This document shows, one piece after another, positions 18,794 through 60,045 of a stretch of DNA of 64,000 nucleotides. The DNA comes from Zygaena filipendulae (taxonomy: Eukaryota > Arthropoda > Insecta > Lepidoptera > Zygaenidae). The translations under genes were made by a program, and so were the position numbers. The DNA is taken from assembly GCA_907165275.2 (NCBI GenBank), contig OU015652.1, positions 1,999,001 through 2,063,000 on the forward strand. The letters run 5' to 3'. The first letter of the stretch is position 1; each line of letters begins with the position of its first letter. The notes beneath the pieces are model-generated. The model searched no databases, was not told where the DNA came from, and saw nothing but the letters and a program-made list of their open reading frames with translations.

Positions 18794-18845
18794 GGTATTA
18801 TGTTATAATGCTATATATGTTATGCTATATAAGCTATATATGTTA

Positions 18846-37168: not shown

Positions 37169-37180
37169 CACTGGGAAAAA
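37169..37180 (+). repeat. Left terminal inverted repeat of the CACTA element
   Basis: CACTGGGAAAAA, matched by its inverse at 60034-60045. The similarity stops after 12 bases, where the left side continues into ACACGGCT motifs. Preceded by GTA; TA is the likeliest 2-bp duplication. Confidence 0.9.
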
Positions 37181-37449
37181 TACACGGCTTTTGAACACGG
37201 CTACGTTTTGCGTAGCCGTGCAAACGGTTCTGACAACCGAGTTTGGCAGCCGTGTAAAGAACCGTGTACACGGCTACATGAAACGTAGCCGTGTAAGCGG
37301 TTAAGATAGCCGCTTTAGACGGTTACGTGTACCATGTTCGTAATTTTTTCAGCCGTGTTGAAATCCTAGCCGTGTAAAATTACACGGCTACCTTTTGACT
37401 CGGTTGTCGGAGCGGTGTGCACACAACAAACACGGCCTCGGTAACGTTG
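37181..37449 (+). repeat. Left subterminal zone of short ACACGGCT/AGCCGTGT motifs
   Basis: Immediately inside the left end the octamer ACACGGCT and its inverse AGCCGTGT recur many times in both orientations at irregular spacing, before the regular 94-bp array begins. Clusters of short inverted motifs like this are the usual binding sites of the TnpA-type protein in plant CACTA elements. That role here is inferred from position only. Confidence 0.8.
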
Positions 37450-39182
37450 TTGACACGGTACGGTGCACCGCGTGCTTATCACGTTAGCCGTGTCATATAT
37501 TAAACTTGCTAACATGACTGTCGGAGCCGTATAGACACGGTACAGCAGGTCGTGTGCTTATCAAAACTTGGCCACGTTAGCCGTGTCATATAATAAACTT
37601 TCTAACACGGCTGTCGGAGCCGTTCTATAAACGGTACAGCTGGCCGTGTGCATAACATAACTTGTTCCCGTTACCCGTGTCATATATTTAACTTGCAAAC
37701 ACGGCTGTCGAAGCCGTTTAGACACGATACAGCAGATCGTGTGCTCGTCAAATCTTGGCTATGTTAGCCGTGTCATACAATAAACTTGCTAACACGGCTG
37801 TCGGAGCCGTTCTATAAAGGGTACAGCTGGTTGTGTGCTTATCAAAACCTGGCCACGTTAGCCGTGTCATATATTAAACTTGCTAACACGGCTGTCGGAG
37901 CCGTTAAGACACGATACAGCAGGTCGTGTGCTTTTCAAACCTTGGCTACGTTAGCCGTGTCATACAATAAACTTGCTAACACGGCTGTCGGAGCCGTTCT
38001 ATAAAGGGTACAGCTGGTTGTGTGCTTATCGAAACCTGGCCACGTTACCCATGTCATATATTAAACTTGCTAACACGGCTGTCGGAGCCGTTCTGTAAAT
38101 GGTACAGCTGGCCGTGTGCAGAACATAACTTGTTTACGTTAGCCATGTCATATAATAAACTTGCAAACACGGCTGTCGAAGCCGTTAAGACACGATACAG
38201 CAGGTCGTGTGCTTTTCAAACTTTGGCTACGTTAGCCGTGTCATACAATAAACTTGCTAACACGGCTGTTGGAGCCGTTCTATAAAGGGTACAGCTGGTT
38301 GTGTGCTTATCAAAACCTGGCCACGTTAGCCGTGTCATATATTAAACTTGCTAACACGGCTGTCGGAGCCGTTCTATAAAGGGTACAGCTGGTTGTGTGC
38401 TTATCAAAACCTGGCCACGTTAGACGTGTCATATATTAAACTTGCTAACACAGCTGTCTGAACCGTTCTGTAAATGGTACAGCTGGCCGTGTGCAGAACA
38501 TAACTTGTTTACGTTAGCCGTGTAATATATTAAATTTGCTAACACGGCCGTCGGAGCCGTTTGGACACGATACAGCAGGTCTTGTGCTTATCAAAACTTG
38601 GCTACGTTAGCCGTGTCAGAAATGAACCACGCAAACATGGCTGTCGTAGCCGTTATATACCTAAACGGTACAGCGGACCTTGTGCAAAACAAAACTTGTT
38701 TACGTTAGCCGTGTCATTAATTATCTTGCAAATACGACTGTCGGAGCCGTTTAGACACGATACAGCAGGTCGTGCGCTTATCAACACTTGACTACGTTAG
38801 CCGTGTCAGAAATGAACCACGCAAACATGGCTGTCGTAGCCGTTATATACCTAAACGGTACAGCGGACCGTGTGCAAAACAAAACTTGTTTACGTTAGCC
38901 GTGTCATTAATTATCTTGCAAACACGGCTGTCGGAGCCGTTTATACGCGATACAGCAGGTCGTGTGCTTATCAACACTTGACTACGTTAGCCGTGGCATA
39001 AATGAACCTCGCAAACATGACTGTCGTAGCCGTTATATAACTAAACGGTACAGTGGACCGTGTGCAAAACAAAACTTGTTTACGTTAGCCGTGTCATTAA
39101 TTAACTTGCAAACACGGCTGTTGGAGCCGTTTAGATACGATACAGCAGGTCGTGTGCTTATCAACACTTGGCTACGTTAGCC
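37450..39182 (+). repeat. Left subterminal tandem array, about 94-bp unit, about 18 copies
   Basis: The phrase CTGTCGGAGCCGTT recurs every 93-94 bases. Two unit types, one with TATAAAGGGTACAGC and one with AGACACGATACAGCAGG, partly alternate, giving a roughly 188-bp higher-order period. Each unit holds one AGCCGTGT and one CACGGCTGTC. The array ends abruptly at 39182. Long open frames run through it (for example 37786-38285) because the unit has few stops; these are repeat artefacts, not genes. Confidence 0.9.
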
Positions 39183-39921
39183 TCTTATGGAATGGCTGTG
39201 TGTTAATAACAGCGCCATCTTTGATTCCAGACTGGAACCACTAGATGGTTTATCTAGGTAAGATCATCATCAGCTAATTTAGCAAGTAGTTTAGGATTAA
39301 GCCGACAGAGGGCGTTATAATCCGAACCGCTTAGTATGAGCTTTGCAAATAATTATACAAATTTTGCAAATAATTATTACACAAAAGAAGGAATAACACG
39401 CCGTTTTTACTGTCTGCAACCTAACCCTGAAGCCGTTCACATTCCTTCAGTGAACATAATCCTTTTTTGCCACATGAGTGTCTTATCTGATAAATGTGAC
39501 TCACTGATATCTGATGCATGTTCAGCTTCAGACATGCAGTCTAAGGAGAAAATCCACCCTAGAAAAAAGCGGCCAAGTGCGGACTCGCCCATGAAGGGTT
39601 CCGTAGCAGCAAGTAACATTAATATAAAAGTTCTTGTAGTTCGTTGTAACTTTGATCGATGTTTTAATAATATTGTAATTTTTTATTGCGGTTTACAATC
39701 TATGACGTATTAAAAAAAACTACTTACTAGATCTCGTTCAAACCTAGACCCAATATGCATTACTCTGTATTGCGAATTTGCGATTATATTACGCGCTATA
39801 CACAGCAGACGCCACAGATTCACTTTAAATAAAATTTAGTGCGTGGACATTTATACAGGGTGGAAAGTTAAAACGGGGCAGTAAGGGCAGCTACTAACAC
39901 GAACGGAAACAAATTACGAAA
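39183..39921. other. Left inner region of the transposon, no gene recognised
   Basis: Begins right after the 94-bp array. A 125-codon open frame on the plus strand (39336-39713) shows no recognisable domain. Around 39571 lies a fragment of an interspersed repeat (GCGGCCAAGTGCGGACTCGC), also seen inverted near 50605-50635. I see no convincing gene. Confidence 0.5.
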
Positions 39922-40295
39922 ATTAAAACCGACTTCCAAAAACACAAAGCCAAAAAGCTAAAAATAAAAAGCTATAAATTACAAAATACCGATTTAATCC
40001 AAAAGACAAAAACACACGTAATTATTATTGGTTTGTGCTACCACTGATCGGTTTGAATTCGGTGACAAGCCCGCTGGTGTCTGCCCACTTGGGTCGTTCT
40101 GCTTACGAAGAGCTGGTGGCGGGAGTCGACTGAGCCCATCTACCCCCTCCATATTCATACCTACCTATCAGTGGTAGCACAAACCAATAATAATATTACG
40201 TGTGTTTTTGTCTTTTGGATTAAATTGGTATTTTGTTATTTATAGCTTTTTATTTTTAGCTTTTTGACTTTGTGTTTTTGAAAGTCGGTTTTAAT
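39922..40295. repeat. Foldback element nested in the transposon
   Basis: The left arm starts ATTAAAACCGACTT and the right arm ends AAGTCGGTTTTAAT. The arms match for over 100 bases through AAACACACGTAAT and GGTTTGTGCTACCACTGAT, enclosing roughly 100 bases of unique loop near 40055-40160. No coding capacity; probably a non-autonomous foldback or two inverted copies of one repeat. Confidence 0.75.
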
Positions 40296-40424
40296 GTTTT
40301 GTTAAAATTTTGTTTATTTCTCGCTTTTAAGTGACATAGTTCGTAATTTCTCTAAGTTACAATAGCCTAATGTCAACTGCTCATCGCCTTTTACAAAATA
40401 TTGCCTTTCCCGGCGCAGGGACGT

Positions 40425-41130
40425 TAATTATTGAGGAGTTCTCCTAGTACATCACTAACAGTTCCACTTCACCATATACATTGTGACGAGCATAAATTGT
40501 TTAGAACCCATATTAAAGGTAACGATTCGGAACCTGTGAAATACCTATTATTGAGTAGTTCCGATAACCATCTGTGGTCTTCATCATCAGTTCCACTTCT
40601 TCAAATTTTGCTTTCCGAAAGCAAATACACGATTTACTATAAAAATACAAAAATCGCTATAGGTGTACCTATAATTTTTGAAGAGTTCCCTCAATTACTC
40701 CAAGATTCCACCATCAGATCTTGACTATCCCCTTTTAAACAAAAAAACAATTTTCGAAATCGCTCCAATCAGAACCCGTGAAATACGTACTATTGTTGAA
40801 TAGTTCCGATGACCATCTGTGGTCTTCATCATCAGTTCCACTTCTTCAAATTTGGCTTTCCAAAAGCAAATGAACGATTTACTATCAAAAATACCCAAAT
40901 TGCTATAGGTGTGCCTATAATTTTTGAAGAGTTCCCTCGATTTCTCCAAGATTTCATCATCAGATCCCGACTTGGTGGCAATGGGACCTAATTGGGAGTA
41001 TACCCTTTCAAACAAAAAAAGAATTTTCCAAATTGGACCAACCGCCTTCGAGTAATCAGTGAACATACATAAAAAAAAGACATACATACAATCGAACATA
41101 GAACCTCCTCCCTTTTGGAAGTCGGTTAAA
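40425..41130 (-). repeat. Two or more tandem copies of a lepidopteran interspersed repeat
   Basis: The block ends TTTTGGAAGTCGGTT. It contains at least two versions of GCTATAGGTGTRCCTATAAT followed by TTTTTGAAGAGTTCCCTC (near 40655 and 40905), and two of ATCTGTGGTCTTCATCATC (40570, 40815). The same family occurs on the plus strand at 22062-22300. The class is not clear to me, possibly a LINE 3' portion. Confidence 0.6.
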
Positions 41131-41737
41131 AAGAAACGCATCGCATCGCGCCATGTCGCATCACGCATCCGCCACCACCGGGCGGATGCGTATTGCGTGG
41201 CGCGTGGCGCGGCTCGCGGCCCAGCCGCCCAGTCAATGGCAGTCGTTGAATGCTAGGTACCTACTCACTCTCTCGCAAAAACGACAATACAATCGACGTG
41301 GACAACAGAATAGATTATTCAATAATGAATTAACTATAGGTAATATGTACAGAGAAAAATTCTAATAATTAAAAATTTCATGCACCATGTTAGGTTAGCA
41401 TCGTAAGTTAGTAACGTAAGTATCCATCAAAAAATTCAATGGCAATTGGCAATATTAAATTTGAAACAATGTATTCATAGACTATATTATAATATTTTTT
41501 TTTTAAACGGTCAAGTTGTCTCTCAGAGACTGTACACACGTAGGGACATGTTTATTTATTAAAAGTATTCCTCATAAATGTAATTTTTTTTAATTGAGAT
41601 ATTTTAAGCTATATCGTAATTCGTAGCCCGTAAAGAACATGTTCAAACTTGTTCCCAATGTTCCCGCATTTCTACTTGAATGGGTGTGTATATATATATC
41701 TATAGTATAATATATATGTAATAATATGTGTAGTATA

Positions 41738-41813
41738 TACCACGTTTGTTTGGTTTCCACGACACAAGCTTATAACTTAGTGTGGGATCAAGTACATCTG
41801 TGTGTTGTGAAGT
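41738..41813 (+). repeat. SINE-like repeat fragment
   Basis: GGTTTCCACGACACAAGCTT followed by CTTAGTGTGGGATCAAGT and TGTGTGTTGTGAA is shared almost base for base with 14040-14108. This looks like the body of a lepidopteran SINE or LINE tail. Confidence 0.55.
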
Positions 41814-41944
41814 GGATTATTATTATAAAAAGAAAAAAAAAAATTAAGGTCACAAGTCGCAAAAGCACAACTGCTGACTGCAGACTAGTGCAGGCAGACT
41901 GTAGTGCAGACTCAAGATTCAAGACTACTCAACCAAAAATTTAT

Positions 41945-42180
41945 AAAAAGTAGGTAGGTAGGTACCTACCTACCATCCATGTAGGTAGGTACTTTTAATC
42001 CCGGAACTACCTCGGGAACTCCGAAATTAAAGCGGATGAAGCCGCGGGGAACAGCTAGTATTCCTCATAAATACATCAATAGAAGTCTTCCGGAGGCCGA
42101 AACGTCCAGTAGGTAGGTACCTACCCAAACGGTGACTACCTAGTATACCTACCTACCTACGGAATTTTTGTACCGATAGC
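41945..42180. repeat. GTAG/CTAC tetranucleotide-rich tract
   Basis: Runs of GTAGGTAGGTAGGTACC and their inverse recur around a Helitron-like 3' end (41988-42058, plus strand, ending ACAGCTAG). Similar tracts recur at 42610, 42710 and 43560. Confidence 0.55.
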
Positions 42181-42894
42181 GTCCAGTAGACACACGTTGT
42201 CTACAGACGAAACGGATTGGTAATTTTTCTACGTCGACGTGACGTCGATGCCTACGAAGTAAAAAGGGTCGGCCTCTCAGACGAAAGAGGTCGGCCTTTT
42301 ACCCACCTATTTTACTGGCTTTTTATACCCCAATGAGCCCCAGTGAATAAAGTCCGTAACTTTTGAATGACGCAATTTAATTTGAAATGACGACTGTTAA
42401 AAAAAACAAATGAAATAACTAATTTGTATACTTTTCAATTTCTTTTCTAATAGGTAGTAGGTATTCATTGAGGTCATTGATAGTAGTAAATCTAGTTTAG
42501 TAGTAAATCAATGATTGAGGTATTCATTTGTTCAAAACTTTACGAAAAATCAACAGTTTTGTAGCAAATTTATTTAAAATTTCATTTCACATCTATATTA
42601 TAATATATAGATAGGTAAGTAGGTACCTACCTCCCTAGTACCTACTATAATAAAAGAGTAGAATCCACGATTAAGTACATGGCAGTTAATCATTCAGCAG
42701 CGTAGTAAGTAGGTACCATGTAGGTACCTACCTAAGTCGGTAGTTATTACACTTGGCTAGTTTTGTCTCCTAAGTCATTCAGAAGCAAATTTGAAGCTTC
42801 TGATCACACTATCCTAACTTGTAGTTACTAAATGGAGCGCGACGGAGTCGAAGGAATACGAGGATGGCTTCAGTATTGTATATTGTAGTATCCA

Positions 42895-43159
42895 AAAAAT
42901 TGTCCTTTGCGGCCAAAAATTCTTTCACTAAAAAGAAGCTACAGTGGTCCTGAGTGACATAGGGTACTTTTATCCCATCCCCGAATTCCCGCGGAAACTC
43001 CGGAGTTTGTAATATCTGAATCTACTGCACCGATTTTGAAAATTCTTTCACTTATAAGAAGCTAAAGTAATCCTGAGTGACACAGTGACACACCCTTCAT
43101 CCCGGAACTCCCACGAGAACTCCGAAACCACCGCGGGTGAAACCGCGGGGGTCAGCTAG
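42895..43159 (+). repeat. Helitron-like repeats, two partial copies in tandem
   Basis: Two successive bodies each contain TCTTTCACT...GAAGCTA...CCTGAGTGACA, followed by an 'xATCCC..GAATTCCCGCGG' segment. Only the second keeps the 3' end, a GCGGGTGAAACCGCGG hairpin and CTAG at 43156-43159. Confidence 0.6.
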
Positions 43160-45914: not shown

Positions 45915-48900
45915 ATGAGGTGAGTAGGTACTTAATTTTAATTGTAATACTCATGTGTGCAGTAAAAGTGGAGCATTATCAAACTGCGAACCCGTTTGGA
46001 GGTTAGCGCATCCTCCTAAAGGAAAAAACGATATTTACTTGATATACCATTGTTTTGCAAACAAATATTGAATTGAAGCATAAACACGTGCCAAACTCGG
46101 TAGGTACCTACTACCTACATATTTAATAAAGTAGACAGTTTTAAAAAAAGATGGCGCCTCGCCTTTTTTACGTGTCCTAGTTAGTGCAAAAGTTCGCGCC
46201 ACTTTGTAACGGCTCCATGGTACTGTAAAAAAATATGATAGATTTGTTTTGTTTCTAGTTTGTGTCACGAATTAAGCGAACTGTTGAATGCGTGGGGTTT
46301 CGAGAAATACGCCGAAGCATTTCTTGGTAAGTTGGAATATATCTTACACAAAATTATATTTACATTTTATGCCTATTTTGATGCGTTCTATGTTCTATAT
46401 AATAAAAGTAAAATACATGATGAAACATTAAAAAAAAACTAAATCCATGCCATAGCTGTACTTTGACCAATAAAAAATAAATAATTTTTAAATCAATTGA
46501 AGTGTGATAAAAAAAAGTGTTACCTAAGACACATTATCTAGGGGTAATCTGTCAAACAAAATCTTATTTAGGTATATATAAAAATTTCGTGTCACGATGT
46601 ATGTTCGCGATAAACTCCGAAACTACCTACTGAACGGATTTTGATAAAATTTTGTAACCATTTATAATATGGTCCAACTTAAAAGATGTAGTTTTTATCT
46701 CAATTATTGATCTCAAAGTTCTTATAAATTTGGAGTCAGCTGGCCATGTGCATAGCATATTAGCCGTGTCATAATGTTAAACTTGCATACACGGCCGTCG
46801 GAGCCGTTTAGACACGATACACCAGGTTGTGTGCTTATCAAAACTTGGCTACTGGTTTTTTGATAAATATTTTTGGTTTAAATAAATAAACAAAATAAAT
46901 GTTGTCGGACACCAATTGATCCAGTCCCAAAGCAGAGCTTGTGTTATGGGTACTAGACAACGGTTAAACTGGACTGGAGAACAAACATTCATATTCATCT
47001 ACCGGGATTAGAACCCCGGACCTCTAGTGTCATAGGTCACTCAGGGTCACTAACCACTAGGCTATCCGGGTTGTCTAAAGGTTGAAAACTAAATCTAACC
47101 TTAACTTGTAATTGTTTTGGTACCTGCTGTTAACATTTTAACTGGGAATTTGTTTGCTTATTTTATTTTCATATATTGGTTTAATAGAGATATTTTTCCA
47201 TAGCTATAGCATTAATTTTTTTTTGTTTTTCTAGAAAACGAAGTGGACCTGTCTAGGTTGCCCTTATTGGACAATGACCAGATAAAGCAACTCATTCCTC
47301 CTATTGGCCCTCAGGCCAGATTTAAAAAATGTCTTGCTGATTGGAAAAAACCATCAAATCCTTTAACTCCAATCCCTGCACCCGGCACACACAACCAATG
47401 TGCAAGGTATAATTTACTTTTTTACAATTTTAATATTGCAATTATATTCTTAATTTAATTTAAAGACATTAAGTTACCCTAACTGAGTTTGAATATATCA
47501 CCAACACCACATTAACTTATTCATTTCAATTTGCAGTCCTCCTAACAATCGCACAGCTCATGCTGAAGCTCCAGCTCAAGAGTCAGCACTCCCAGTATCC
47601 GCACCAGGCAACTGCAATCCTCTTAGAAATTTGCTTGAGAAATCCAGTGCAACCAGGCAGTTGCTGAAGATTGGACTGCAAAGGGAATTCCGACGAAGCG
47701 AGCAAAGCGAGCTCTGTGACATCATTCTCGACTACCTCCTGAAAGATAGGAGCGATCAGAAACCAAAACTTGCATACGGTGTTTTCATACAATGGGCCAA
47801 GCACGTCCACGATTTGTTCACAAAGGAACCAGAGGCTATTTGGTTTAGCGTCACCCCTCCCTCGAAACAAGACTTGACCCAACTTTCTCCAGGAGCAAAA
47901 GCACCTCCATCCGCCTCTGCGCGGCCTCATGGGAAGTTATATGACAGGTAGGTATAACAAAATAATATAAATGTAAATAAAAAATATATGGACGCAGATA
48001 AGCAATAACATGTTAACCCACAAAATTAAGTTATTGATTCAGAACAATTTATTGAGAGTTAGGGAACGTTTTTTAATTATGTGTTTACCTTATTACATTG
48101 CTTAAATATGTAACTAAATATTGAACATAAAAAATATTGATACAAAATGGCGCTCCTACTTTTAAAACACGATTTACTCAAAATTTCTCCAGTGTGGGTT
48201 AACACACTATTGCTTATCTATGTCCATATAATAAATACCTAGGTTAAATGTGAGGGTGGCAACATGAAAAAGCTTCAAAAAATCTATCCAGTGCAATTAT
48301 GAGTACGTACCTACCAATGTCTGTATAGAATGATTGAATCCAATTGCTTACTCTTATTTCATGTTCGGATGAAGATACGGCAAAAGGCAGGCTATTTGGC
48401 GAGAGACCAGAGGGTTAGTAAACAAGAAGACCTCATCCGTCACTACAGCAGAGACATCTGACGATTCAGAGGAAATTGGTACAGGGCGACGTGGCCTTAA
48501 AAGGAAACTATCACAGCGGCCATTACAGGACGAAGAACTTGATCAGGACCAAAACTTAGAAGGTAGGTATACAGTATAGTTCATATACAATTTTAAATGT
48601 GTACGTAGATCCAATAGGCGGATCCACACCGGACGAGCGGCTCGGCCGAACATGGCTCGTCCTAACATGCGCGCTGAACCGAGTGTAGATGTGGTGGTTA
48701 TAGGTGTGGATCCGCGTGATGACAGGGCTATGAACTAAGAGGGGCTGATAGAGCACCTCATACGATATCCATATTAATTAAGGTGATGCTTACAGATGCT
48801 AAACATCGTAGCGAAGTGGTCGATAGCAGTCTTTTTTATTTACTTTGTGTTTATTTAGTTCAATAGTGGTATACAAAAATATTGTTAATTTAATTACACT

Positions 48901-51900
48901 AATATTACATTTATTTATGTATTTCTTTTTATTAAATTGTATTTTTTGTTTATTATATTATAAGTAGTGTATTATAGAAGTACTTGATTAATAATTTATT
49001 TACTTGTATTTTTTACTGCAATTTAAGTTATTATATTTTATTTCTATGTTTAATTGGTTTATTTATATTTATCCAAATAAGTATGATATTATAATTTTTT
49101 CCTCTTCTTTTGTTACCCCCGTCCGTGCGTGACAGCGGGCTGCCAACTGAAAACCAGCGCTAGGTGTACCACCCGCAGCACCTAGCTAATGCTGAGTTGG
49201 TGACCCTTTCGGCAGAGCATGCAAGAGATACAATAATATATTGTGTACAAATTTAGATTAGGCATTGCTTGTGTTTTTATCTTTTTCTTGTGTGTTGTGC
49301 TGAAATAAATGTATTTTCTTTCTTTCTTTCTTTCTTTCAAACATCTGTGTTGTGTTTATATTATGAAATAAATATTTATAATTATAATTTATAATATATA
49401 ATTTGTATATATATATATATATATATATAATTTATAATGAAATAAACTTCACTATTACTTATACTTGATCGTTTTCCACAGAGGAGCTGAAAATTAACGG
49501 CGACATTATCACAATAGCCAAGTACCAGGGATTAGAATCTTCATCCATACTAGAAACAGCTTGGAAAGCCACGTGGTCACTTCGCAAGCGGTACTTAATG
49601 ACTGTTTCAACTTCACAGTACTTGAAAAAGTTTCCTTTGCTTCGTTTGGAGAGAGTTGGTCCACACCTGGTAAGTGATTGGCACATTTGTGGATCATATT
49701 ATATCTATTTTTTACAACCTTTTATTTAACTTGCACTGTTCATATGTACCTGGCATACTTTTGTATTTTCATGTAATATTCTGAATATTTTTTCCGTGGC
49801 GTGTTACGTTTGGTTGTATTTATCAGTCAGAAGAAAATATATTATATTTAAATCTAAACAGATGTGCGCGAGAGAAAGAGAGAGTGACAATGCCCTATCC
49901 TATAGGAACAGGGTCTGTAAATCGTATAAGCGCCGCCCGTTGTTTCAAGTTTGAGTTCGTTCGGTCATTTCGTCCGTGACTCGAGAAGTGGCTGATATTT
50001 AGACGCCGAGCAACATCAGACTGCTGTATCCAGATTGCAGTAGTGCCACCACGTAAGCTGCGTCGTCTACCGTGTATACATTTTTCAGGGTTGCTCAGGA
50101 GTGACCCCACCTCAGTGACGTCTGGATAGCGAATAATCTTTAATTCTCTCTCTCTTTCGCTCGCTCACCCTCACTGGGAGTGTATGTGGGGGTGCCATTT
50201 CGGAACGAGGCCCTTATTGTTGCAGGCTAGGCTGTTGGGGGTTCTGTTTAGCCAATCAGTGGTAGTGATGACATTATTGGCCTTTCAGCGGCATGGCGGT
50301 CTCGGTGACGCTCTTGGCTTTTAGGGTTAGTGTCGGTCTTTCAGCGGCTTTTTGGTGTCCTGGGGTGGGACTGAGCAGAGGCAGCATCGGGTTGCATATG
50401 CTCTCTCGTGAGAGCTTTGGTTTAGCGGTCTGGAGTGGAGTGGCGCTATCCCCTGCAGCAGTTGTTGAACCACATGCAACAATAGGAACACATAGGTTCG
50501 CACATGGGTAGTGGAATAATAAACAAAAACATCAATTGCTCAATAGGCAGCAGCAACTTACACAGTGGGAACTAAGTCCGACCAGTGATGCACGTAACCC
50601 TTGCAACGCGAGTCCGACTCGCACTTGGCCGGTTTTTATATTTTAACAAAATTAACTTGTTTATTTTTGTTTCACAGATAAACATTGACTTCACAAATCT
50701 AAATTATAATATTAGCCCCTCAGCACTGTACACTGGGTTAAGACAAATCTCAGACCTGATAGAAAACAGAGCTTCCGCAAAGCTGCAAACACTATCGAAG
50801 CCCTTACGGGCTCAGCAACAAAGAATCCACGATCTTCCAAAAGGTAATGGATATTGTTTTGAACCGACTTCAAAAAAAGAAAGTTCTTAATTCGGTTATA
50901 TATTTTTATCTATATGTTTGTTACCTCAGAACTGCGTCATTTATAAACTGTTATTAAAGTTTTTAGATTTTCGCGTTTTGAGCACATTATATTATGTAAA
51001 TTACGCGGGACTTGAACGCGATGTTATTTATTACCTTTTTTGCCTGACGTTTCGGCTGAGTTGCATCACGCCGTGGTCACAGGCTGACTGAAGCATTGCG
51101 GCGTCGATAGCGAGCCGCGCGAGCGGATTCCTCATCTACCCTCACTGGATGTTCTTTTTTATTAGATGCACTTTTAAGGTCCCTGCACACTACACTCACT
51201 CGGTCCGCATTCACCGGTTCCGGACGGCCACAACGATTTTTTGTTTTTTGAATTATAGGATCCCATGTTGGCAACCTATATCCGTCATCTCGATTGAAAG
51301 TTTTGTGTTTCTTTATTTCAACCGCTTCACGCACTATCCTCGCGTAGTAGTGACGTTCAGTTGAGAGAACCTTCAAACGATGGAACTCAATCCAGTGGTT
51401 CAAATCCGGTTGCAAGATGTGTTCCGCATCGTTGCGGCCGTTCGGAACCGGTGAATGCGGACCGAGTGAGTGTAGTGTGCAGGGACCTTAAAAGTGCATC
51501 TAATAAAAAAGAACATCCAGTGAAGGTAGATGAGGAATCCGCTCGCGCGGCTCGCTATCGACGCCGCAATGCTTCAGTCAGCCTGTGACCACGGCGTGAT
51601 GCAACTCAGCCGAAACGTCAGGCAAAAAAGGTAATAAAAAACATCGCGTTCAAGTCCCGCGTAATTTACATAATACTAGCTGTCCCCCGCGATTTCACCC
51701 GCGGTAATTTCGGAGTTCCCGCGGGAATTCCGGGATAAAAACTATCCTATCTTTTAAGTTGGACCATATTATAAAAAGTTGCAAAATTTTATCAAACTCC
51801 GTTCAGTAGTTTCGGAGTCCATCGCGGACAAACAACGTGACACGTGATTTATATATATAAGATTTATATTTACATAATATTTATAAACTGATTTAGAATT

Positions 51901-52770
51901 TTTTTTTTTTATTTGAAAGAATAATACTCCCGAGGTGATCCCACTGTCACTAAGTCAGGATCTGATGATGGGATCCTAGGGAAATTGGGGGCAACCCTCA
52001 AATTTTTTAGGCACTTTTCTAAAGTTATTTAAGTATTTGCGTCTGGTGTTTAGTGGACATTCGCTTGATTAATTAACATTTAATTCTATTTTTCAGATAC
52101 TGAGTTACAAAGGCTAACTGCAGTACTTCTTTTACTGCCATTTGCAATCGTCGGGGGAAGAACCGGTGTTCGAACTAAAGCCTCGCGGATCGACGCAGCC
52201 ATCCGCTTCATTTTCGTTGCCAAAACTCGCAGCGAGGGCGAGGCTCATTTACAGGAACTCAGAAAGGAAGCTTTAAACAAGTCAGCACCTGGTATTGGAG
52301 TGCAGCCTTTAGTTATTGCTATAGGTGAGAACTTGGCGAACATTAATAGCGCATTCGTCGTTGTAGATGACGTTTGGTTATGCTGTCTTAATATTCTGGA
52401 AGCTGTAGACCTATGTTTTAAAAGTTTCTATGTTTTTAACCTAAGATACCCAATACAGTGTGAGCACATTTGGCAGGTGCTCCAGTTCACTTGTTATGGC
52501 ATAAGAGACGCAAAGCATGACAAATATATTATTGACGTCAATCGTTTCCTCAATGAAAGTAAATACCCTGGCTTACAAGTTACTGGAAACTCATCTTCAC
52601 AAGAGACTGTAAACTCTACCTCTCAAGAGACTAGAGAGATTCCCTCTCTAGAGACTAGAGAGATTCCCTCTCTAGAGACTAGCGAGATTCCCTCTCTAGA
52701 GACTAGCGAGATTCCTTCCTCTCTAGAAACCATAGAATCTTGGTCTCAAATGACTGGAGACTCCTTCTGA
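45915..52770 (+). CDS. SAM-domain transposon partner protein (candidate TnpA analogue), 8 exons, 623 aa
   Basis: My gene model joins 45915-45919, 46259-46326, 47235-47406, 47537-47947, 48375-48562, 49482-49669, 50678-50843 and 52097-52770. All introns are GT-AG, phases agree, and the 1872-nt frame has no internal stop. The ATG was chosen because ATGAG|GTGAGT splices in phase to the SAM exon. Residues about 6-62 form a SAM (sterile alpha motif) fold, with LLNAWGFEKYAEAFLENEVD and IKQLIPPIGPQARFKKCLAD as anchors. The middle is basic and Ser/Glu-rich (exon 5). Exon 8 holds a conserved domain with LTAVLLLLPFAIVGG, VQPLVIAIGENL, AVDLCFKSF and an HxWxxLQ-like segment, a pattern I know from uncharacterised transposon-linked proteins in fish, cnidarians and insects. 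It ends in a repeated SLETREIP tail. SAM domains mediate oligomerisation; binding to the subterminal arrays is inferred. Weakest junction: the exon 5 acceptor, which has a poor pyrimidine tract. Confidence 0.85.
46568..46715 (+). repeat. Helitron-like repeat, 5' part, in intron 2
   Basis: TTCGTGTCACGATGTATGTT followed by CGCGATAAACTCCGAAAC and GGTCCAACTTAAAAGAT is the inverse of the distal part of the copies at 5448 and 51676. The 3' hairpin end is missing. Confidence 0.6.
46737..46853 (+). repeat. Stray copy of the 94-bp subterminal unit inside an intron
   Basis: AGCCGTGTCATAATGTTAAA followed by CACGGCCGTCGGAGCCGTTT and GACACGATACACCAGG matches the left-array unit. It lies alone in intron 2 of the SAM-domain gene, about 7.5 kb from the array. 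Confidence 0.85.
46900..47075 (-). repeat. tRNA-headed SINE in intron 2 of the SAM-domain gene
   Basis: On the minus strand the head reads TAGCCTAGTGGTTAGTGACC (A-box-like), then GGGGTTCTAATCCCGG (B box). A SINE body follows with CAGTTTAACCGTTGTCTAG and GCTCTGCTTTGGGACTGGA. It is a polymerase III-type retroposon, not a functional tRNA. Confidence 0.8.
48091..48216. repeat. Interspersed repeat shared with 10178-10310
   Basis: ATTACATTGCTTAAATATGT and the following 110 bases, through AAAACACGATTTACTCAAAA and GTGTGGGTTAACACACTATT, match 10178-10310 with few differences. Family unknown. This copy lies in intron 4 of the SAM-domain gene; the other is outside the transposon. Confidence 0.75.
48618..48715. 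repeat. Short palindromic element in intron 5
   Basis: GCGGATCCACACC at the left is inverted as GGTGTGGATCCGC at the right, about 100 bp in all. The interior includes GAGCGGCTCGGCCGAACATG. Probable MITE. Confidence 0.55.
49120..49340 (+). repeat. LINE 3' end with (CTTT)n tail in intron 5
   Basis: GCTGAGTTGGTGACCCTTTC, GCAGAGCATGCAAGAGATA and GTGTTGTGCTGAAATAAATG end in a run of CTTT. The inverse of the same family is at 17475-17610. The AATAAA and simple-sequence tail fit a truncated LINE 3' UTR. Confidence 0.7.
49406..49429. repeat. (TA)n microsatellite
   Basis: An uninterrupted TA run of about 24 bases in intron 5, just upstream of exon 6. Confidence 0.8.
49860..50640. repeat. Repeat-derived filler of intron 6
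   Basis: GAGAGAAAGAGAGAGTGAC near 49868 and CTCTCTCTCTTTCGCTCGCT near 50145 may be crude inverted ends. A different GC-richer segment follows (50210-50530), then a piece of a common repeat, CGAGTCCGACTCGCACTTGG, near 50610. Classes uncertain. Confidence 0.4.
50990..51675. mobile_element. Penelope-like retroelement remnant in foldback form, intron 7
   Basis: Seen: two arms of about 240 bp in inverse orientation, each bearing GACGTTTCGGCTGAGTTGCA or its inverse and ending TATTATGTAAATT / AATTTACATAATA. On the minus strand, 51077-51415 encodes STERHYYARIVREAVEIKKH and NRDDGYRLPTWDPI. Known: a 'RYYPRI.REA.EI.KH..FNR.DG..LP..W.P' segment is typical of the end of the GIY-YIG endonuclease region in Penelope-like elements, and those elements often carry inverted terminal repeats. 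Inferred: a 5'-truncated copy with its repeat inverted. No reverse transcriptase remains. Confidence 0.65.
51676..51866 (-). repeat. Helitron-like repeat abutting the Penelope remnant
   Basis: CTAGCTGTCCCCCGCGATTT at the left is the inverted 3' end. The body matches the copy at 5448-5697 closely, including ACAACGTGACACGTGATTTA. It begins one base after the foldback ends. Confidence 0.75.
51890..52010 (+). repeat. Fragment of the 22062-type interspersed repeat
   Basis: GATCCCACTGTCACTAAGTC, AGGATCTGATGATGGGATCC and ATTTTTTAGGCAC align with 22200-22280. Located in intron 7, just before exon 8. Confidence 0.6.
52627..52740 (+). repeat. Coding minisatellite in the last exon of the SAM-domain gene
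   Basis: A 24-bp unit (GAGACTAGAGAGATTCCCTC plus TCTA) is repeated about four times in frame, encoding SLETREIP/SLETSEIP repeats near the C-terminus. The codons are nearly identical between units, so expansion is recent. Confidence 0.85.
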
Positions 52771-52814: not shown

Positions 52815-55406
52815 ATGCTCACTTGCTATTACTGTAAAAAATGTTTCCGTGATCTGTGTTTGCTGTTTTCCCATATAACAGTAGGTTGTCCGAAGTACAA
52901 TGATGTCGAAGGGTGGGGAGGTTTTAGATGTGGAATGTGTTCACGCTGGTTTTCTGAGGTATATACATGGAGGCGTCATGTCCTGAACCACCACGCTCCA
53001 CCCTCTACTCTTGTGTCTCCTTGTAAATCAATCCCTTCCCATGAGTCGACTCCTGTTAAGGTCTTAAATTTACCTTGTCCCAGCATCAGCAGTGGAGTAA
53101 TGCCTACAAGTAACATATTTAGAACCCCTGAGAAAATGGCTACATCCGTTTTTAGTGATACCTCTTCTCAACAAGTTATGCAACCATCAACAGCATCACA
53201 AAATGCGTCAAATTTTTTGCAGCAGCAATTAGGATTATTGATCAGTTCTTTTCACACTAACACTGGTTTGTCCTTTAAAACTGTCCAGAGTTTTGTAGAC
53301 GCTTTTCGCTGTTTCAACAGAGACCTTGTGGATGTAGCTTTAGAACTAATGAGCAAAGAGCTTTCCACATCAACGGGCGATGTGGTCTGTGAACATGTCT
53401 CGTCATATATAGATCAGCTACGTCAAACATTAAATGCAGTTATAGAGCCACTTCAGTCGATTTACAAGCGAGAGCAATACTTCACCAGCTTGGGTTCTTA
53501 TATTCCTCCTCAAGATATTTTTCTAGGGTTTCGAAATGAAGTAGTGGGACGTCACCTCCCGCCTCGCAGTATTCCGGTTGTTGGTCAGTTCATCCCACTA
53601 CGCAGAGTTCTTCAGCGGTTGCTCTCGATTCCAGGGTTGATGTCAGAAATGGATGTGTATGTTCAACGTTGCCATAAGTCACCCTGCATAAAGCACTTTA
53701 CTCAGTCTCCTGTTTGGATAGAGACAGTGTCCCAACATTCCCTAGGCGTAGATAGTAAAGTGTACCCTTATCACATATATTTCGATGATTTCGAGACCGG
53801 AAATGCTTTAGGATCTCATGCTGGTCTTCATAAACTTGGCGGCATGTATATATCTCTTCCTTCACTCCCTCCTCGCTTGGCTTCTCAGTTGAAATATATA
53901 CTGTTGTTTTACCTTTTTCATTCAGATGATCGCACAGAGTTTGGTAACTCAATATTTAAAACTGTTATTGATGAAATTAATTTTCTTGCCGAAGAAGGTG
54001 TCCACATCAAAGTTGAGGGCTTCGAGGGAAATGTGAGGTTTATACTTGGTCTCATCATAGGAGACAATCTAGGTCTGCACACTATTTTGGGTTTCACTCA
54101 GAGTTTCAGAGCTAACTACTCTTGCAGAATATGTAAAGCCTCAAAGGAAGTAACTATTTCACAATGCGTCGAGGACCCCAATTTGTTAAGAGACAAAGAG
54201 ACATATTTGAAGGATGTCGATCGGGATAATGTCACAGCAACTGGTGTCCGGGAGTGTTCAGTTTGGTTGGATGTAAAATACTTCGATCTTTTCTCACATG
54301 TTGCTGTTGATTATATGCATGACTTGTTAGAGGGAGTTTGTAGGTATACTATGAAAGTCGTTATCGAAAATCTTATTGAAAAGAACCATCTCACATTAGA
54401 TTATCTGAATTCACGAATAATAGAGTTTGATTATGGTCCTGATTCTAATAACAAACCACCCACACTAAAAAAGTTAGGTGCCAACTCTGTTCAAATCAAA
54501 ATGTCGGCAAGTGAATGCCACAGACTTGTAAGATATTTCAGCTTGATGATTGGGCATCTGGTAGATGAAGTAGATAATAGACGGATAGGTGGCCATAAGA
54601 AAGTCCTGTCTTCAACAAAATACGAATACTATGACATGTATCTCTTACTACGCAAAATAATGGATATTATCCTCACTGAACAAGTTTATCCTCAGTTGGC
54701 TGATGTGCTTGCCATTTATATTAAAGATTTTAATGAACTTTTCATTAAATTATCCAAATCTACGCTAAAACCAAAATTTCATCATTTGATTCATTATCCA
54801 CGTATGATGTTGAAGCTAGGACCTATTGGACACATTTCTAGCATGCGCTACGAGTCTAAACATAGAGCTGGCAAAGCTGCTGTCAATGCAGGAGCTGGTA
54901 GAGTGAATGTTTGCAAAAGTGCAGCAAAAAAACTTCAGCTTCAACTGAACTACTTGTTACTAACAAATCTGACTGCTGCTGTCAATTTACCTGGTTCCTT
55001 AACTACTCTCCCAATAGAAGAAAAGATAGCTGTTATAGATGTGTTCTCGTTACCTACAAATACATCTATTTATTCCACACCCCACGTTACTGTTGCTGAT
55101 TATAACGTTACTTATCATATTAGTGATGTCCTTCTCCTTGAGTTGTTGTCTGAGGATATGTTTGCCCCCTTGTTAATGTCGGTTACTAACATTTATTACG
55201 AAAGTGGAGTGGGCAAGGCTTACGCAAAAGGCCACCTCTTCGAAACATTGTACTTCGACAGTCACTTTCATGCTTATAAAGTGATAAAAACCCATGAGGT
55301 GAAATATATTGCTTTAGACCAGTTGCTATTTCCCTTCCCCAATACATTAACGCCCTCTTTGATCGATGATGCTTTTTTCGTAACCATTCGTAATGCCATA
55401 GACTAA
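52815..55406 (+). CDS. CACTA/EnSpm-type (CMC) transposase, 863 aa, intact
   Basis: Role: the catalytic protein expected to cut and join the element ends in the nucleus. Seen: a zinc-binding head at residues 4-60, with CYYC and then a clean C2H2 finger (C39-x2-C42-x12-H55-x3-H59). A linker of about 70 residues follows. The catalytic core begins with IYFDDFETGNALGSHAG (D324/D325), then IGDNLGLHTILGF with D417, followed by a Cys pair at C437/C440, then DYMHDLLEGV (D499-x2-H502), and SMRYESKH with E680. The 'DNxG..I.GF...CxxC' and 'DxMH' blocks match those of plant Tnp2-type transposases. Which of D417 and D499 is the second catalytic Asp I cannot settle. The ATG is preceded in frame by TAA two codons upstream. 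It starts only 44 bp after the stop of the SAM-domain gene, so expression may need a shared or alternatively spliced transcript. No frameshift or stop. Confidence 0.93.
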   Translation: MLTCYYCKKCFRDLCLLFSHITVGCPKYNDVEGWGGFRCGMCSRWFSEVYTWRRHVLNHHAPPSTLVSPCKSIPSHESTPVKVLNLPCPSISSGVMPTSNIFRTPEKMATSVFSDTSSQQVMQPSTASQNASNFLQQQLGLLISSFHTNTGLSFKTVQSFVDAFRCFNRDLVDVALELMSKELSTSTGDVVCEHVSSYIDQLRQTLNAVIEPLQSIYKREQYFTSLGSYIPPQDIFLGFRNEVVGRHLPPRSIPVVGQFIPLRRVLQRLLSIPGLMSEMDVYVQRCHKSPCIKHFTQSPVWIETVSQHSLGVDSKVYPYHIYFDDFETGNALGSHAGLHKLGGMYISLPSLPPRLASQLKYILLFYLFHSDDRTEFGNSIFKTVIDEINFLAEEGVHIKVEGFEGNVRFILGLIIGDNLGLHTILGFTQSFRANYSCRICKASKEVTISQCVEDPNLLRDKETYLKDVDRDNVTATGVRECSVWLDVKYFDLFSHVAVDYMHDLLEGVCRYTMKVVIENLIEKNHLTLDYLNSRIIEFDYGPDSNNKPPTLKKLGANSVQIKMSASECHRLVRYFSLMIGHLVDEVDNRRIGGHKKVLSSTKYEYYDMYLLLRKIMDIILTEQVYPQLADVLAIYIKDFNELFIKLSKSTLKPKFHHLIHYPRMMLKLGPIGHISSMRYESKHRAGKAAVNAGAGRVNVCKSAAKKLQLQLNYLLLTNLTAAVNLPGSLTTLPIEEKIAVIDVFSLPTNTSIYSTPHVTVADYNVTYHISDVLLLELLSEDMFAPLLMSVTNIYYESGVGKAYAKGHLFETLYFDSHFHAYKVIKTHEVKYIALDQLLFPFPNTLTPSLIDDAFFVTIRNAID

Positions 55407-55587
55407 CTAGTTAGGTGCTTATACTGTCTTGTCTCCCCCCACTAAATGCGTCGTGGCTCTCGATGGCTCCCGGTCTGAATCCACTCAAGACCACCTAAGG
55501 ATCAACTGTGCCAAGTTTCAGCGCATAGTCAAAAACTGCAAGGTTCCAATAAGTACAACAGATAGCAATACTTAGCACACCAGCTAA

Positions 55588-55865
55588 AACCGGTGTTAGA
55601 ACTAAAGCCTCGCGGATGGACGCAGCCATCCGCTTCATTTTCGTTGCCAAAACTCGCAGCGAGGGTGAGGCTCATTTACAGGAACTCTGAAAGGAAACTT
55701 TAAACAAGTCAGCACCTGCAGGTATTGGAATGCAGCCTCTAGTTATTACTATAGGTGAGAACTTTGTTCGCCAAGTTCTTAATAGCGCATTCGTCGTAGA
55801 TGACGTTTATGCTGTCTTAATATTCTGGAAGCTGTAGACCTATGTTTTAAAAGTTTCTATGTTTG
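55588..55865 (+). pseudogene. Broken duplicate of part of exon 8 of the SAM-domain gene
   Basis: Starting CCGGTGTTAGAACTAAAGCC, this stretch matches 52161-52435 almost throughout, including GCTGTAGACCTATGTTTTAA. It carries an in-frame TGA near 55687, a 3-bp insertion after CACCTG and several small insertions and deletions. It has no other exons. It lies downstream of the transposase, so it is a local partial duplication or the remnant of another element copy. Confidence 0.85.
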
Positions 55866-55890
55866 TATGTATGTTTTTAATGAACGAAAC

Positions 55891-56052
55891 TGTTTACCTT
55901 ACTAATCCGCAAACATAAAGCAATAATTCATGAAAGTATGTTACATAAGTTTCTTAAACTATCACGCCTTTAGCGACTAAAGAAACTGATTTAACACACA
56001 AACACAAAGCCAATTTATGAAAGTTTGTGTTTGCGGATTAGCAAGGTAAACA
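55891..56052. repeat. Foldback/MITE (TGTTTACCTT ends)
   Basis: TGTTTACCTTACTAATCCGC at the left is inverted at the right as GCGGATTAGCAAGGTAAACA, one mismatch. About 160 bp, no coding capacity. Confidence 0.75.
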
Positions 56053-56106
56053 GGTCGGTTCAATGATATGAACTTCCGCAAAGTAAAGCCTTAGTCAACC
56101 AATTAG

Positions 56107-56254
56107 TGTACGGTCAGCGTCATAAATATATATATATATACGTTAACATGAGCTCAAAAATATCTACACACCACTATGTCACTGACAATAAGGTTGGTGT
56201 TTACACATTTTGACTCGATGGCTGTATATATATATTAATGATGCTGACTGTACA
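56107..56254. repeat. Foldback/MITE (TGTACGGTCAGCGTCAT ends)
   Basis: TGTACGGTCAGCGTCAT is inverted at the right as ATGATGCTGACTGTACA. Both arms carry TA-dinucleotide runs next to the ends. About 148 bp. Confidence 0.75.
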
Positions 56255-56803
56255 TACTTACATAAAATAATGTATCATTATCAATGATTACCTACGACTT
56301 TCCTTTCTTTTGATGCCACCAAGCACACGATGCGTATACAAAACAAAACTTGTGTAAGTAAATGTAGATAAATTGTTGTCAAAACTTTCTGATCTCGTTT
56401 ATTTACAAATTAATTGATATTACAAATGTGATTCATATACCGCTGACGGGTTGGATGCCAGCGCCCTTGGGCTGCCAGGTGCACGAGTTGCGGCAGACGA
56501 GGGTTGGCAACCTATACTTTTCCGGTTCTTCGGATCGGTCTCTTTTCGATGGCACTTATTTACTTCATAAGCAAAAGGCTGGTCGTGGTTACCCAATTAT
56601 TTGAAATAAACGACTGTCATAGGTACCTACTTGCGACAAGATTTTGCGAGGCAACCCGACAGCGGTGTATGATACTGATACCCCATGTGTTTATCTTTCT
56701 TTTTATTAATCTCTTTTCCATAAAATAACAGATAGGTGCACAAACTTATACTATTAAAATTATGTTAAATATCCCGTTATTAGTGTTAATATTATTCACT
56801 ACC

Positions 56804-56945
56804 AGGGGCCTTATTCTCAAGCAATCAGCATCCAATCGTTATCAATATCGGGTTCTATTTGACAAGTAAGCTGTCAAAATGCATACCTAGATTCTATAAC
56901 TGAACTGCCAATTTCTTTGCGATTGTGTTAGACAAAAAGGCCCCA
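56804..56945. repeat. Small MITE (GGGGCCTT ends)
   Basis: GGGGCCTTATTCTC at the left and AAAAAGGCCCC at the right form short inverted ends around about 140 bp. It resembles the larger GGGCCCTTATTC elements at 2700 and 60811 and may be a relative. Confidence 0.5.
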
Positions 56946-57013
56946 GGATAGTTTCAAATATCTATTAAGTATCTATTAAGTTACAGTTTGTAATAACAAC
57001 CATTTCATACAGG

Positions 57014-57219
57014 CAAGGATCATATAGACTGGATTAGCAATCGCCATAGTAGAGCAACCGCGGAAAACTAGTTCATTTATTAAATCTAGAAGGCGCTGAC
57101 ATTATAGCCCGAGCCTTTGAAAGTAAAACAATAAGACTACAGACGTTTCTACTGCAAATTTATATTATTCAATATTTTTGAAAAATAAAAATTAGCTAAT
57201 CCAGTCTATATGATCCTTG
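57014..57219. repeat. MITE with 25-bp perfect terminal inverted repeats
   Basis: AAGGATCATATAGACTGGAT and five further bases at the left are matched exactly in inverse at 57195-57219. The interior is unrelated and non-coding. Confidence 0.8.
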
Positions 57220-58043
57220 ATATAGGTGATTCATCAAATCTGAATTGAGCGAAGCTGTGGATGATATAATATGTAATTATGAGAGGATAGATAATTGGGT
57301 ACCTTAAGTTTTTTCTAAGTGGTCCATATTATATTGTTTGTAGTAATTAAATGGTTAATGGAGTTCACAGCTGTAGCTAGTTTTTTTTATTCGTTTCTGT
57401 TTTTTACAAATATTTTTTTGAAAGGCAAAGTTATGTGGGCCCACACGGCACACGCTTGTCAAGCTTTGGAAAACCGGCAGGACGTCTTTAAGTTAGTGTG
57501 ACTTAGAAACGCATCAGCTAATAAAACTAACGTACCACAGCGTCCTGCAGGTTTGACAACGAGATCCTCTAGTACAGTTTCATTAAATTTGATCCATGTT
57601 TACTAAATCTTCTTGTGTACAGGAAATATAATTGGATTAGAATTGTCTATAAATTTAAAAATTGGATTAAAATTGTGTATTGAATAAATTATTTGAATTT
57701 GTATAAATTTGAAACCATTTAAGTAATTTTGGAAAATAAATGAACAGTATCTTAAAATGAATATGTTAATTATTTACTAATCATATCATTCTTCACCAAA
57801 TAGGAAAATCAGTAATTTTAAGAGATTTCTTGTATTCTTTTAGTGTTTATCTTGTATAATTCAACTGCAGCTTTATTTCGCAGGTGTTCAAGTATATCTG
57901 ACTCTTCTATCTTTATGCTATACAGCTGGTGAACTTGAGACATTCGTGTCAGTACGGCTACTTATTATTGCCATTTTCTTATGTTGTGCACATAGGAAAA
58001 GGGTCTAAGTAGCCATATTGATGCAGCTGAGATCACTGTTTTG
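57220..58043. other. Right inner region of the transposon, no gene recognised
   Basis: AT-rich DNA with no protein-like frame. Possible polyadenylation signals (AATAAA) for the transposase transcript lie downstream of 55406, for example near 56607 and 57683, but I cannot choose between them. Confidence 0.4.
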
Positions 58044-59520
58044 CAACGGAGACCTCAACCGTGTTACGCGGCTCCTCCAGCGGCGTAGGGACGTACAGGG
58101 ACGGCTGGGGTAGCCGTGCTCCTGCGTCCATGCGCAGATGGCGGAGCCGTGTGACGCGGTGTGCGCTAGCCGTACAAAACGGTTGTCTCAACCGCGTCAC
58201 CGGCTCCACCAGCTGTATAGGGACTTAGAAAGACGGCTGGGATAGCCGTGCTGACGTGACTGAGGCAACCGTTTTACACGGCCACTTCAAACCGCGTCAC
58301 ATGGCTGCGCCAGCTGCGTAAATACGGCTGGGATAGCCATGTTGACGTGGCTGAGGCAACTGTTTTACACGGCCACTTCAGACCGCGTCACACGGCTACG
58401 CCAGCTGCGTAGGGACGTAGGGAGACGGCTGGGATAGCCATGTTGACGTGGCTGAGGCAACCGTTTTACACGGCCACTTCAGACCGCGTCACACGGCTAC
58501 GCCAGCTGCGTAGGGACGTAGGGAGACGGCTGGGATAGCCATGTTGACGTGGCTGAGGCAACCGTTTTACACGGCCACTTCAGACCGCGTCACACGGCTA
58601 CGCCAGCTGCGTAGGGACGTAGGGAGACGGCTGGGATAGCCATGTTGACGTGGCTGAGGCAACCGTTTTACACGACCACTTCAGACCGCGTCACACGGCT
58701 ACGCCAGCTGCGTAGGGACGTAGGGAGACGGCTGGGATAGCCATGTTGACGTGGCTGAGGCAACCGTTTTACACGGTCACTCCAGACCGCGTCACACGGC
58801 TACGCCAGCTGCGTAACGACGTAGCGAGACGGCTGGGATAGCCATGTTGACGTGGTTGAGGCAACCGTTTTACACGGCCACTTCAGACCGCGTCACACGG
58901 CTACGCCAGCTGCGTAGGGACGTAGGGAGACGGCTGGGATAGCCATGTTGACGTGGCTGAGGCAACCGTTTTACACGACCACTTCAGACCGCGTCACACG
59001 GCCACGCCAGCTGCGTAGGGACGTTGCGAGACGGCTAGGATAGCCATGTTGACGTGGCTGAGGCAACCGTTTTACACGGCCACTCCAGACCGCGTCACAC
59101 GGCTAAGCCAGCTGCGTAGGGACGTAGCGAGACGGCTGAGATAGCCATGTTGACGTGGCTGTGGCAATCGTTTTACACGGCCACTCCAGACCGCGTCACA
59201 CGGTTAAGCCAGCTGCGTAGGGACGTTGCGAGACGGCTGGGATAGCCATGTTGACGTGGTTGAGGCAACCGTTTTACACGGTCACTCCAGACCGCGTCAC
59301 ACGGCTACGCCAGCTGCGTAAGGACGTAGCGAGACGGCTGGGATAGCCATGTTGACGTGGTTGAGGCAACCGTTTTACACGGCCACTTCAGACCGCGTCA
59401 CACGGCTACGCCAGCTGCGCATGAACATAGGGAGACGGCTGGAACAGCCGCGTTGACATGGCTCAGACAGCCGTTCACACGGTCACATCAAACCGCGTCA
59501 CACGGCTTAACCAACGGTGT
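58044..59520 (+). repeat. Right subterminal tandem array, 101-bp unit, about 14 copies
   Basis: GGGATAGCCATGTTGACG recurs at 58330, 58431, 58532 and 58633, exactly 101 bases apart, and continues with small changes to about 59360. The middle units are nearly identical, suggesting recent unequal exchange or gene conversion; the outer units are more diverged. The unit is unlike the left 94-bp unit except for the shared ACGGCT, AGCCGT and CACACGG cores. Confidence 0.9.
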
Positions 59521-60033
59521 CATTAGGTAGGAAAACGGCTGAACTAGCCGTGTCGATATGGATGAGGTAGCCCTTTCACACGGCTACTCCAGCCATGTTG
59601 GCTGTAACCGTGTGTCTGATCTAGCCGTGTCTGCTTATAGCCGTGTTGAAAAATTTACACGGCTGACAAATTGACACGGCTGCAACCGCAGTACCGTGTG
59701 CAAATCTAGCCGTGTATGATAATAGCCGTGTTGAAAAATTGAGACACGGCTGATAAATTGACACGGCTGACAAGATTGACACGGCTGCAACCGCAGTACC
59801 GTGTGCAAATCTAGCCGTGTATGATAATAGCCGTGTTGAAAAATTGAGACACGGCTGATAAATTGACACGGCTGACAAGATTGACACGGCTGCAACCGCA
59901 GTACCGTGTGCAAATTAGCCGTGTGTCCACCGTAGCCGTTTCAGCGTCACACGGCAAATGTTACCGTGTTGACGCGGCTGCAACCGTAGTACCGGGTTTA
60001 CACGGCTGTGGATAGCCGATAAATCGACCCTTT
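59521..60033 (+). repeat. Right subterminal zone of short AGCCGTGT/ACACGGCT motifs
   Basis: Between the 101-bp array and the right end the octamer and its inverse recur densely. A block containing GACACGGCTGCAACCGCAGT is repeated at about 120-bp spacing between 59673 and 59920. The layout mirrors the left subterminal zone. Confidence 0.8.
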
Positions 60034-60045
60034 TTTTTCCCAGTG
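60034..60045 (-). repeat. Right terminal inverted repeat of the CACTA element
   Basis: TTTTTCCCAGTG, the inverse of the left end, followed by TAC. Eight T residues precede CCCAGTG, so the poly-A side of the repeat is slightly longer here than on the left. Confidence 0.9.

Follow-up and report, generated by a model that had tools for sequence, protein, structure and literature searches.

The 64,000 nucleotides of the Zygaena filipendulae genome analysed here (GenBank assembly GCA_907165275.2, contig OU015652.1, forward-strand positions 1,999,001 to 2,063,000; the whole of this stretch is called "the window" below) contain, at positions 37169–60045, what we take to be a cut-and-paste transposon of the CACTA/EnSpm-like (CMC) kind, complete and probably autonomous. 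It is 22,877 bp long, and its family appears to have been amplified recently in this genome; we put the probability of this reading at about 0.88. The sequence itself shows that the element has exact boundaries, a 2-bp target duplication at TA or CA/TG, two intact reading frames and near-identical copies at unrelated sites.

The limits of the element, CACTG on the left and CAGTG on the right, are fixed by paired copies across the genome. The 12-bp terminal inverted repeat CACTGGGAAAAA has exactly two matches in the window, the left end at 37169–37180 (forward strand) and the right end at 60034–60045 (reverse strand), and the 22,877 bp between and including them have TA on both sides (37167–37168 and 60046–60047); with slashes at the boundaries, the junctions read GCGGTA/CACTGGG...CCCAGTG/TACATAA. 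Past the 12-mer the two ends diverge, the left going on TACACGGC and the right AAAGGGTCG. A preliminary description of this DNA had reported matching 12-bp ends and a short target duplication; both are borne out, and the size of the latter can now be given. The window copy alone permits a duplication of either TA or GTAC, the second with ends that begin ACTGGG, but the 4-bp version is suggested by this copy alone. Other copies have only two flanking bases in common, and all 28 paired copies show 2-bp duplications, which settles the length at 2 bp. The uninterrupted target at the window insertion site would be expected to read GCGGTACATAAC.

The paired copies come from a search of the genome for further elements with the same 12-bp ends, a check that the preliminary description had proposed. 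The exact 12-mer was sought over 365.9 Mb in 56 contigs, giving 56 forward and 50 reverse matches (106 altogether), while the reversed control pattern gave 32 and 36 (68 altogether). Among the matches listed, 56 of the 100 places (of the 106) used for pairing fall into 28 convergent pairs with a spacing below 35 kb, a procedure that copies with mutated tips, short ones included, escape; random placement of the 12-mers gave a mean of 0.24 pairs and a maximum of 3 in 2,000 placements. Pair spacing is 16.0–29.4 kb (the shortest is 15,979 bp), and the 28 copies total about 0.57 Mb. Their target duplications are all perfect, 23 being TA, three CA and two TG, the last two representing one target read on opposite strands. 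The window copy, C5b, C1, C11a, C18 and C27 were compared over their complete lengths, and the remaining copies over 2.6 kb per end, with an additional 2.9–7 kb around the transposase gene in C7b, C9b, C12b and C15. One interrupted target has a paralogous empty site: the repeat that hosts copy C1 recurs at locus L057, 89% alike over 227 bp, free of the element and with a single TA. This is the only one counted among seven junction-spanning empty-site matches. Two other matches to the C1 site lie in the window and are 73–74% alike with CC replacing TA, those of C9a (one) and C20 (two) are diverged or gapped at the junction, and that of C8a is its own left flank.

Inside the terminal repeats lie subterminal arrays at both ends, much as the preliminary description had it, in the form of three tandem arrays and an octamer confined to the ends. 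The left array (37481–39182) has 18.1 copies of a 94-bp unit, and on the right there are 11.7 copies of a 101-bp unit (58324–59507) and 2.7 copies of a 105-bp unit (59647–59924). The left and right arrays differ, and few words of more than 8 bases are common to both ends. Exact matches in the window copy to the octamer ACACGGCT/AGCCGTGT (either strand) number 32 in the left 2,014 bp and 29 in the right 2,016 bp of the element, that is 61 in about 4.0 kb of ends, against one in the 18,847-bp interior and none in 41,123 bp of flank. Thus the CACTA-type trait of a short motif repeated subterminally at both ends is present, and neither the clustering of the octamer nor the convergent pairing of the ends is due to chance. 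A displaced left-array unit is present at window positions 46737–46852, within predicted intron 2 of the upstream gene discussed below; its similarity to array units in copy C1 is 78–89%.

The transposase gene is a single exon on the forward strand (52815–55406, ATG at 52815) with no internal stop, and encodes 863 amino acids. The protein consists of one or more N-terminal C2H2 fingers, a RAG1-like DDE core and a BAH-like C-terminal domain (about residues 722–854). Its catalytic signature residues, D324, D417, C437xxC440, H656/H660 and E680 (D-D-C(2)C-H(3)H-E), are invariant in all 43 aligned sequences (the window protein and 42 of its 109 matches), and in the predicted fold the core is RNase H-like and resembles RAG1 and Transib; identity to the RAG1, ProtoRAG and Transib structures (6dbx, 6b40 and 6pqx) is 9–14%. 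The C-terminal domain has the predicted fold of a BAH (chromatin-reader) domain; that assignment comes from the fold model alone, and a Pfam scan of the C-terminal piece gave no family at E <= 10. RAG and Transib make duplications of 5 bp, and the present system differs from them in its 2-bp duplication as well as in its BAH-like domain. A search of PDB sequences with the transposase hit nothing but ribosomal protein S15a/uS8, eight times and weakly (E >= 0.13), which we take to be chance. No relative of the transposase was found in the viral and prokaryotic collections (0 of 4 and 0 of 13 pattern matches, respectively, were confirmed), and a PADLOC scan found nothing. An 861-amino-acid transposase (P0001) on a 24.8-kb JGI contig is 95% identical to the window protein, so a close relative of the element is present in another sample. 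The Z. filipendulae genome also holds eight more distant transposase relatives (31–38% identity) with open frames of 791–864 amino acids and no stops, at C42:197329-199830, C3:5492332, C22:9370451, C31:411751, C31:648753, C20:3928478, C22:469357 and C2:9553530; they may represent several additional, possibly active, families within the clade.

Upstream of the transposase lies a second gene on the same strand (45915–52770), predicted to have eight exons (45915-45919, 46259-46326, 47235-47406, 47537-47947, 48375-48562, 49482-49669, 50678-50843 and 52097-52770) and to encode 623 amino acids with an N-terminal SAM domain (Pfam SAM_1, E 4e-06, 27.5 bits where the cut-off is 23). The exon-5 acceptor is uncertain, as 48375, 48387 and 48411 all keep the frame open. 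Where the preliminary description spoke of two uninterrupted genes, this holds for the transposase, which is one open frame, but for the upstream gene only as a spliced frame of eight exons. Relatives of the upstream protein surfaced only on comparison with the 109 transposase matches: in three insects, Ceutorhynchus assimilis, Aphis craccivora and Ignelater luminosus (proteins P0102, P0040 and P0039), sequences 22–35% identical to it over the matched parts precede the transposase relative within a single predicted protein. Despite this low similarity, all three keep the same order, which suggests a conserved module rather than chance neighbours. These are among the six transposase matches longer than 930 amino acids; of the others P0079 matches the SAM part alone (E 7e-4), and P0030 and P0078 have no match at E <= 0.01. 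Two further features lie near these genes, a degenerate partial duplicate of the last upstream exon on the forward strand downstream of the transposase (55588–55867, 93–98% identity) and a fold-back element in predicted intron 7 (50990–51675) whose 248-nucleotide arms are 98% complementary.

Comparison of the copies that carry a transposase suggests that the element very probably moved recently and that it may still be able to move. The copy at C5:12090142 is also 22,877 bp long and differs from the window element by 7 substitutions and no insertions or deletions (99.97% identity), yet its flanks are unrelated. The C11 copy corresponds to the window element, with 8 mismatches over 22,880 aligned bp, and additionally carries one nested 1,238-bp insertion, which has no counterpart at the same place in the window copy. 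With a mutation rate of 2.9e-9 per site and generation, the 7 substitutions would put the common source no more than about 53,000 generations back. Six copies, which we call type A, encode the same 863-amino-acid transposase (100% protein identity, no stops), with 0–1 of 2,592 nucleotides different from the window gene. In each of the three copies where the upstream gene was read (window, C5 and C11) it is intact, and a change in its product, R32T, found in C5 and C11, is the sole protein difference found among the three. The ends and both genes are thus intact together in window, C5 and C11, and the ends and transposase in six copies. The earlier suggestions that this copy is complete and recent are upheld by the exact ends, the intact frames and a separate insertion of equal length that differs at 7 of 22,877 bp, and the suggestion of autonomy stands, as a possibility, on the six identical intact transposases. 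The nested insertion in C11a (loci L040, L074, L075 and L041) occupies element positions 4760–5997 and has 10-bp inverted ends, CCGTCGAACG, and a TA duplication of its own.

Most of the family is of a different kind. Twenty of the 28 paired copies (type B, 16–25 kb) have no transposase match when the places of the transposases are set against the pair positions; C2, C7e and C7f are called type B solely on this basis. Type-B copy C1 (18,744 bp) has no transposase by tblastn, contains only parts of the upstream gene and is rearranged in its interior, and C27 is 99.3–99.9% identical to it apart from insertions and deletions. In the 17 of 20 type-B copies whose ends were compared with one another (six copies with ends unlike those of the main groups, C2, C7e, C7f, C9b, C15 and C18, were left out of this comparison), median divergence is 0.04% at either end and the largest values are 0.15% on the left and 0.81% on the right. 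These copies encode no enzyme yet were recently mobile, and the simplest reading is that they were presumably moved in trans by the type-A enzymes, as En/Spm moves its deletion derivatives. Short derivatives usually dominate such transposon families. Here, exact 12-mers gave no convergent pair shorter than 15,979 bp among the matches listed, a result that misses mutated tips and is suggestive only.

A few copies are irregular. The C18 copy (C18:9629204-9651291; loci L052, L072, L073 and L053) is 22,088 bp long and flanked by TA, and it lacks a left end, having a right end on either side. On the right, 12,983 bp match the window element at 99.92% identity; the greater part of the left arm is an inverted relative, 98.7% identical, of element positions 16681–22414. 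The transposase of this copy has a 2-bp deletion and a stop after residue 674. If this copy moved as a whole unit, two right ends would suffice for the enzyme; alternatively, it may have arisen by repair at an existing site. A third, broken lineage, which resembles the C18 left arm, is present in copy C15 and on contig C50.

These features can be combined into a mechanism in which the zinc fingers of the transposase, the SAM-domain partner or both would bind the ACACGGCT sites (about 30 per end), self-association of the SAM partner on the arrays would help to join ends 23 kb apart, and the RAG1-like DDE core would cut at CACTG/CAGTG and insert with a 2-bp stagger; the six type-A copies would supply the proteins that move about twenty type-B copies of 16–25 kb. 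A more elaborate version, which we offer as a tentative suggestion, is a two-protein giant system in which the BAH reader of the RAG1-like transposase steers insertion by a histone mark and the SAM partner polymerises on kilobase ACACGGCT arrays, joining ends up to 29 kb apart. RAG2 has a PHD reader, to which the proposed role of the BAH domain is comparable. If such a system did require both arrays and length, this would explain why no short exact-end derivative was seen and why the transposase-free copies are at least 16 kb long.

Several points weigh against a complete, autonomous CACTA/EnSpm-like element. Of eight loci extracted from the 12-mer matches, five (L001, L002 and L005-L007) are without family ends, so the 12-mer alone is not diagnostic. 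The window transposase matched no Pfam transposase model, and a homology search with the whole spliced upstream protein gave no hit at E <= 0.001 in the set of 7,995 scored candidates. The binding of either protein to ACACGGCT is a proposal of ours, the 5-nucleotide first exon of the upstream gene is a guess, and both its splice model and the probable autonomy of the element (which is read from intact ends and genes) derive from sequence only. One could suppose instead that the family, though recently mobile, has since lost its autonomy, its genes being intact from a recent burst while the copies are silenced or a host factor is missing. The interval of up to about 53,000 generations allowed by 7 substitutions in 22,877 bp leaves room for this. 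On the other hand, six transposase genes remain intact and protein-identical, and the window, C5 and C11 proteins differ by one upstream residue; we consider this loss of autonomy unlikely, though not negligibly so.

The classification of the element is secure at one level and less so at the next. Members of the CMC/CMCT clade (EnSpm, Mirage, Chapaev, Transib and kin) have D, D, C(2)C, H(3-4)H and E in that order, mostly CA..TG ends and duplications of 2–5 bp (PMC12730594). The element, with CACTG...CAGTG ends and 2 bp in 28 of 28 pairs, can safely be placed in this clade. The preliminary assignment to CACTA/EnSpm is thus correct at clade level, where the signature (43 of 43) and the RAG1/Transib-like fold support it, but the ends read CACTG and not CACTA. 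Plant-type elements have CACTA ends and a 3-bp duplication, neither of which is found here; because animal members are described with 2 bp and CCC ends, this mismatch counts against the plant type only. These animal members include the TRC elements (SmTRC1 and those of Aedes and Tribolium), which belong to the CACTA superfamily and have 2-bp duplications, CCC ends and sizes of about 5.2 and 9.2 kb (PMC1636069). The present element is like them in its 2-bp duplication and animal host, and unlike them in its CACTG ends, its 22.9-kb length, its kilobase subterminal arrays and its SAM-domain partner gene; in addition, the TRC motif D-x-[LM]-H-x3-L-G is here D-Y-M-H-D-L-L-E-G (E replacing L), and the aspartates, 80 residues apart in TRC, are 93 apart here (D324 and D417) (PMC1636069). 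Spongebob, a CACTA/TRC family that occurs in several invertebrates and is represented by 17 short copies in Bombyx mori, is similar in being an insect member of the superfamily with a 2-bp duplication, but has CCC ends, insect copies of 433–496 bp and a Hydra copy of 5,836 bp, and no intact transposase was found in that family (PMC4298943). A plant parallel is the soybean Tgmt* element, a 20.5-kb CACTA element with a 3-bp duplication (PMC2613891). Tgmt* and maize En/Spm share with ours the giant size, asymmetric subterminal repeats, an autonomous/non-autonomous logic and a transposase with a second protein thought to bind the repeats, and they differ in plant host, CACTA ends, 3-bp duplication and, as far as that account shows, a partner of the TNPA/TNP1 kind rather than a SAM protein (PMC2613891).

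Instead of EnSpm proper, the element could represent a neighbouring branch of the clade, either an ESTA-like one with TA duplications or a separate one. ESTA elements, defined as EnSpm-like with TA duplications, carry the CMCT clade signature (PMC12730594), and most duplications here are TA; moreover, the Pfam Transposase_21 (tnp2) model matches 3 of the 43 aligned transposases at E <= 0.01 (best 6.7e-05) and the Plavaka model 2 of 43, with the window protein matching neither. Against this, five of the 28 duplications are CA or TG, the animal TRC (PMC1636069) and Spongebob (PMC4298943) elements also make 2-bp duplications, and ESTA is described from fungi and carries TET/JBP genes (PMC12730594), a distinction that we draw by description only. 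We think such a placement less likely than not, and describe the element as EnSpm-like. The extreme identity of the copies (99.97%) might suggest errors of assembly or segmental duplication instead of separate transpositions. This can be dismissed with little hesitation, given that the flanks differ, every copy is bordered by a 2-bp duplication of its own, the family is spread over many contigs in both orientations, and one interrupted target has an uninterrupted relative.

The carb-TE insertion of the melanic peppered moth is likewise a large DNA-type insertion in a moth, reportedly of roughly 22 kb with about 9 kb of sequence repeated 2.3 times and a 4-bp duplication; the element described here is not of such a repeated build. 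A literature search (with subscription papers and Repbase outside its scope) found, among the papers listed, no giant insect EnSpm-like element, no SAM-domain transposon partner and no BAH domain in a CACTA transposase. As far as that search shows, what is new is the combination of giant, probably autonomous and giant non-autonomous copies in an animal, a SAM partner, a BAH-like transposase domain and signs of very recent movement. If active, a giant animal EnSpm-like transposon with identical intact copies and non-autonomous partners would allow a direct test of how cut-and-paste transposition handles a 23-kb cargo. A RAG1-like transposase with a predicted chromatin reader and a partner gene conserved in other insects is relevant to recombinase site choice and to the relation of the RAG system to its transposon kin, and 28 paired copies of 16–29 kb each bear on repeat annotation and genome assembly. 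Elsewhere in the window, a short reverse-strand frame at 30063–30452 encodes a DUF4817 helix-turn-helix domain (E 1.5e-18), and we take it to be a probable remnant of a mariner-like transposase.

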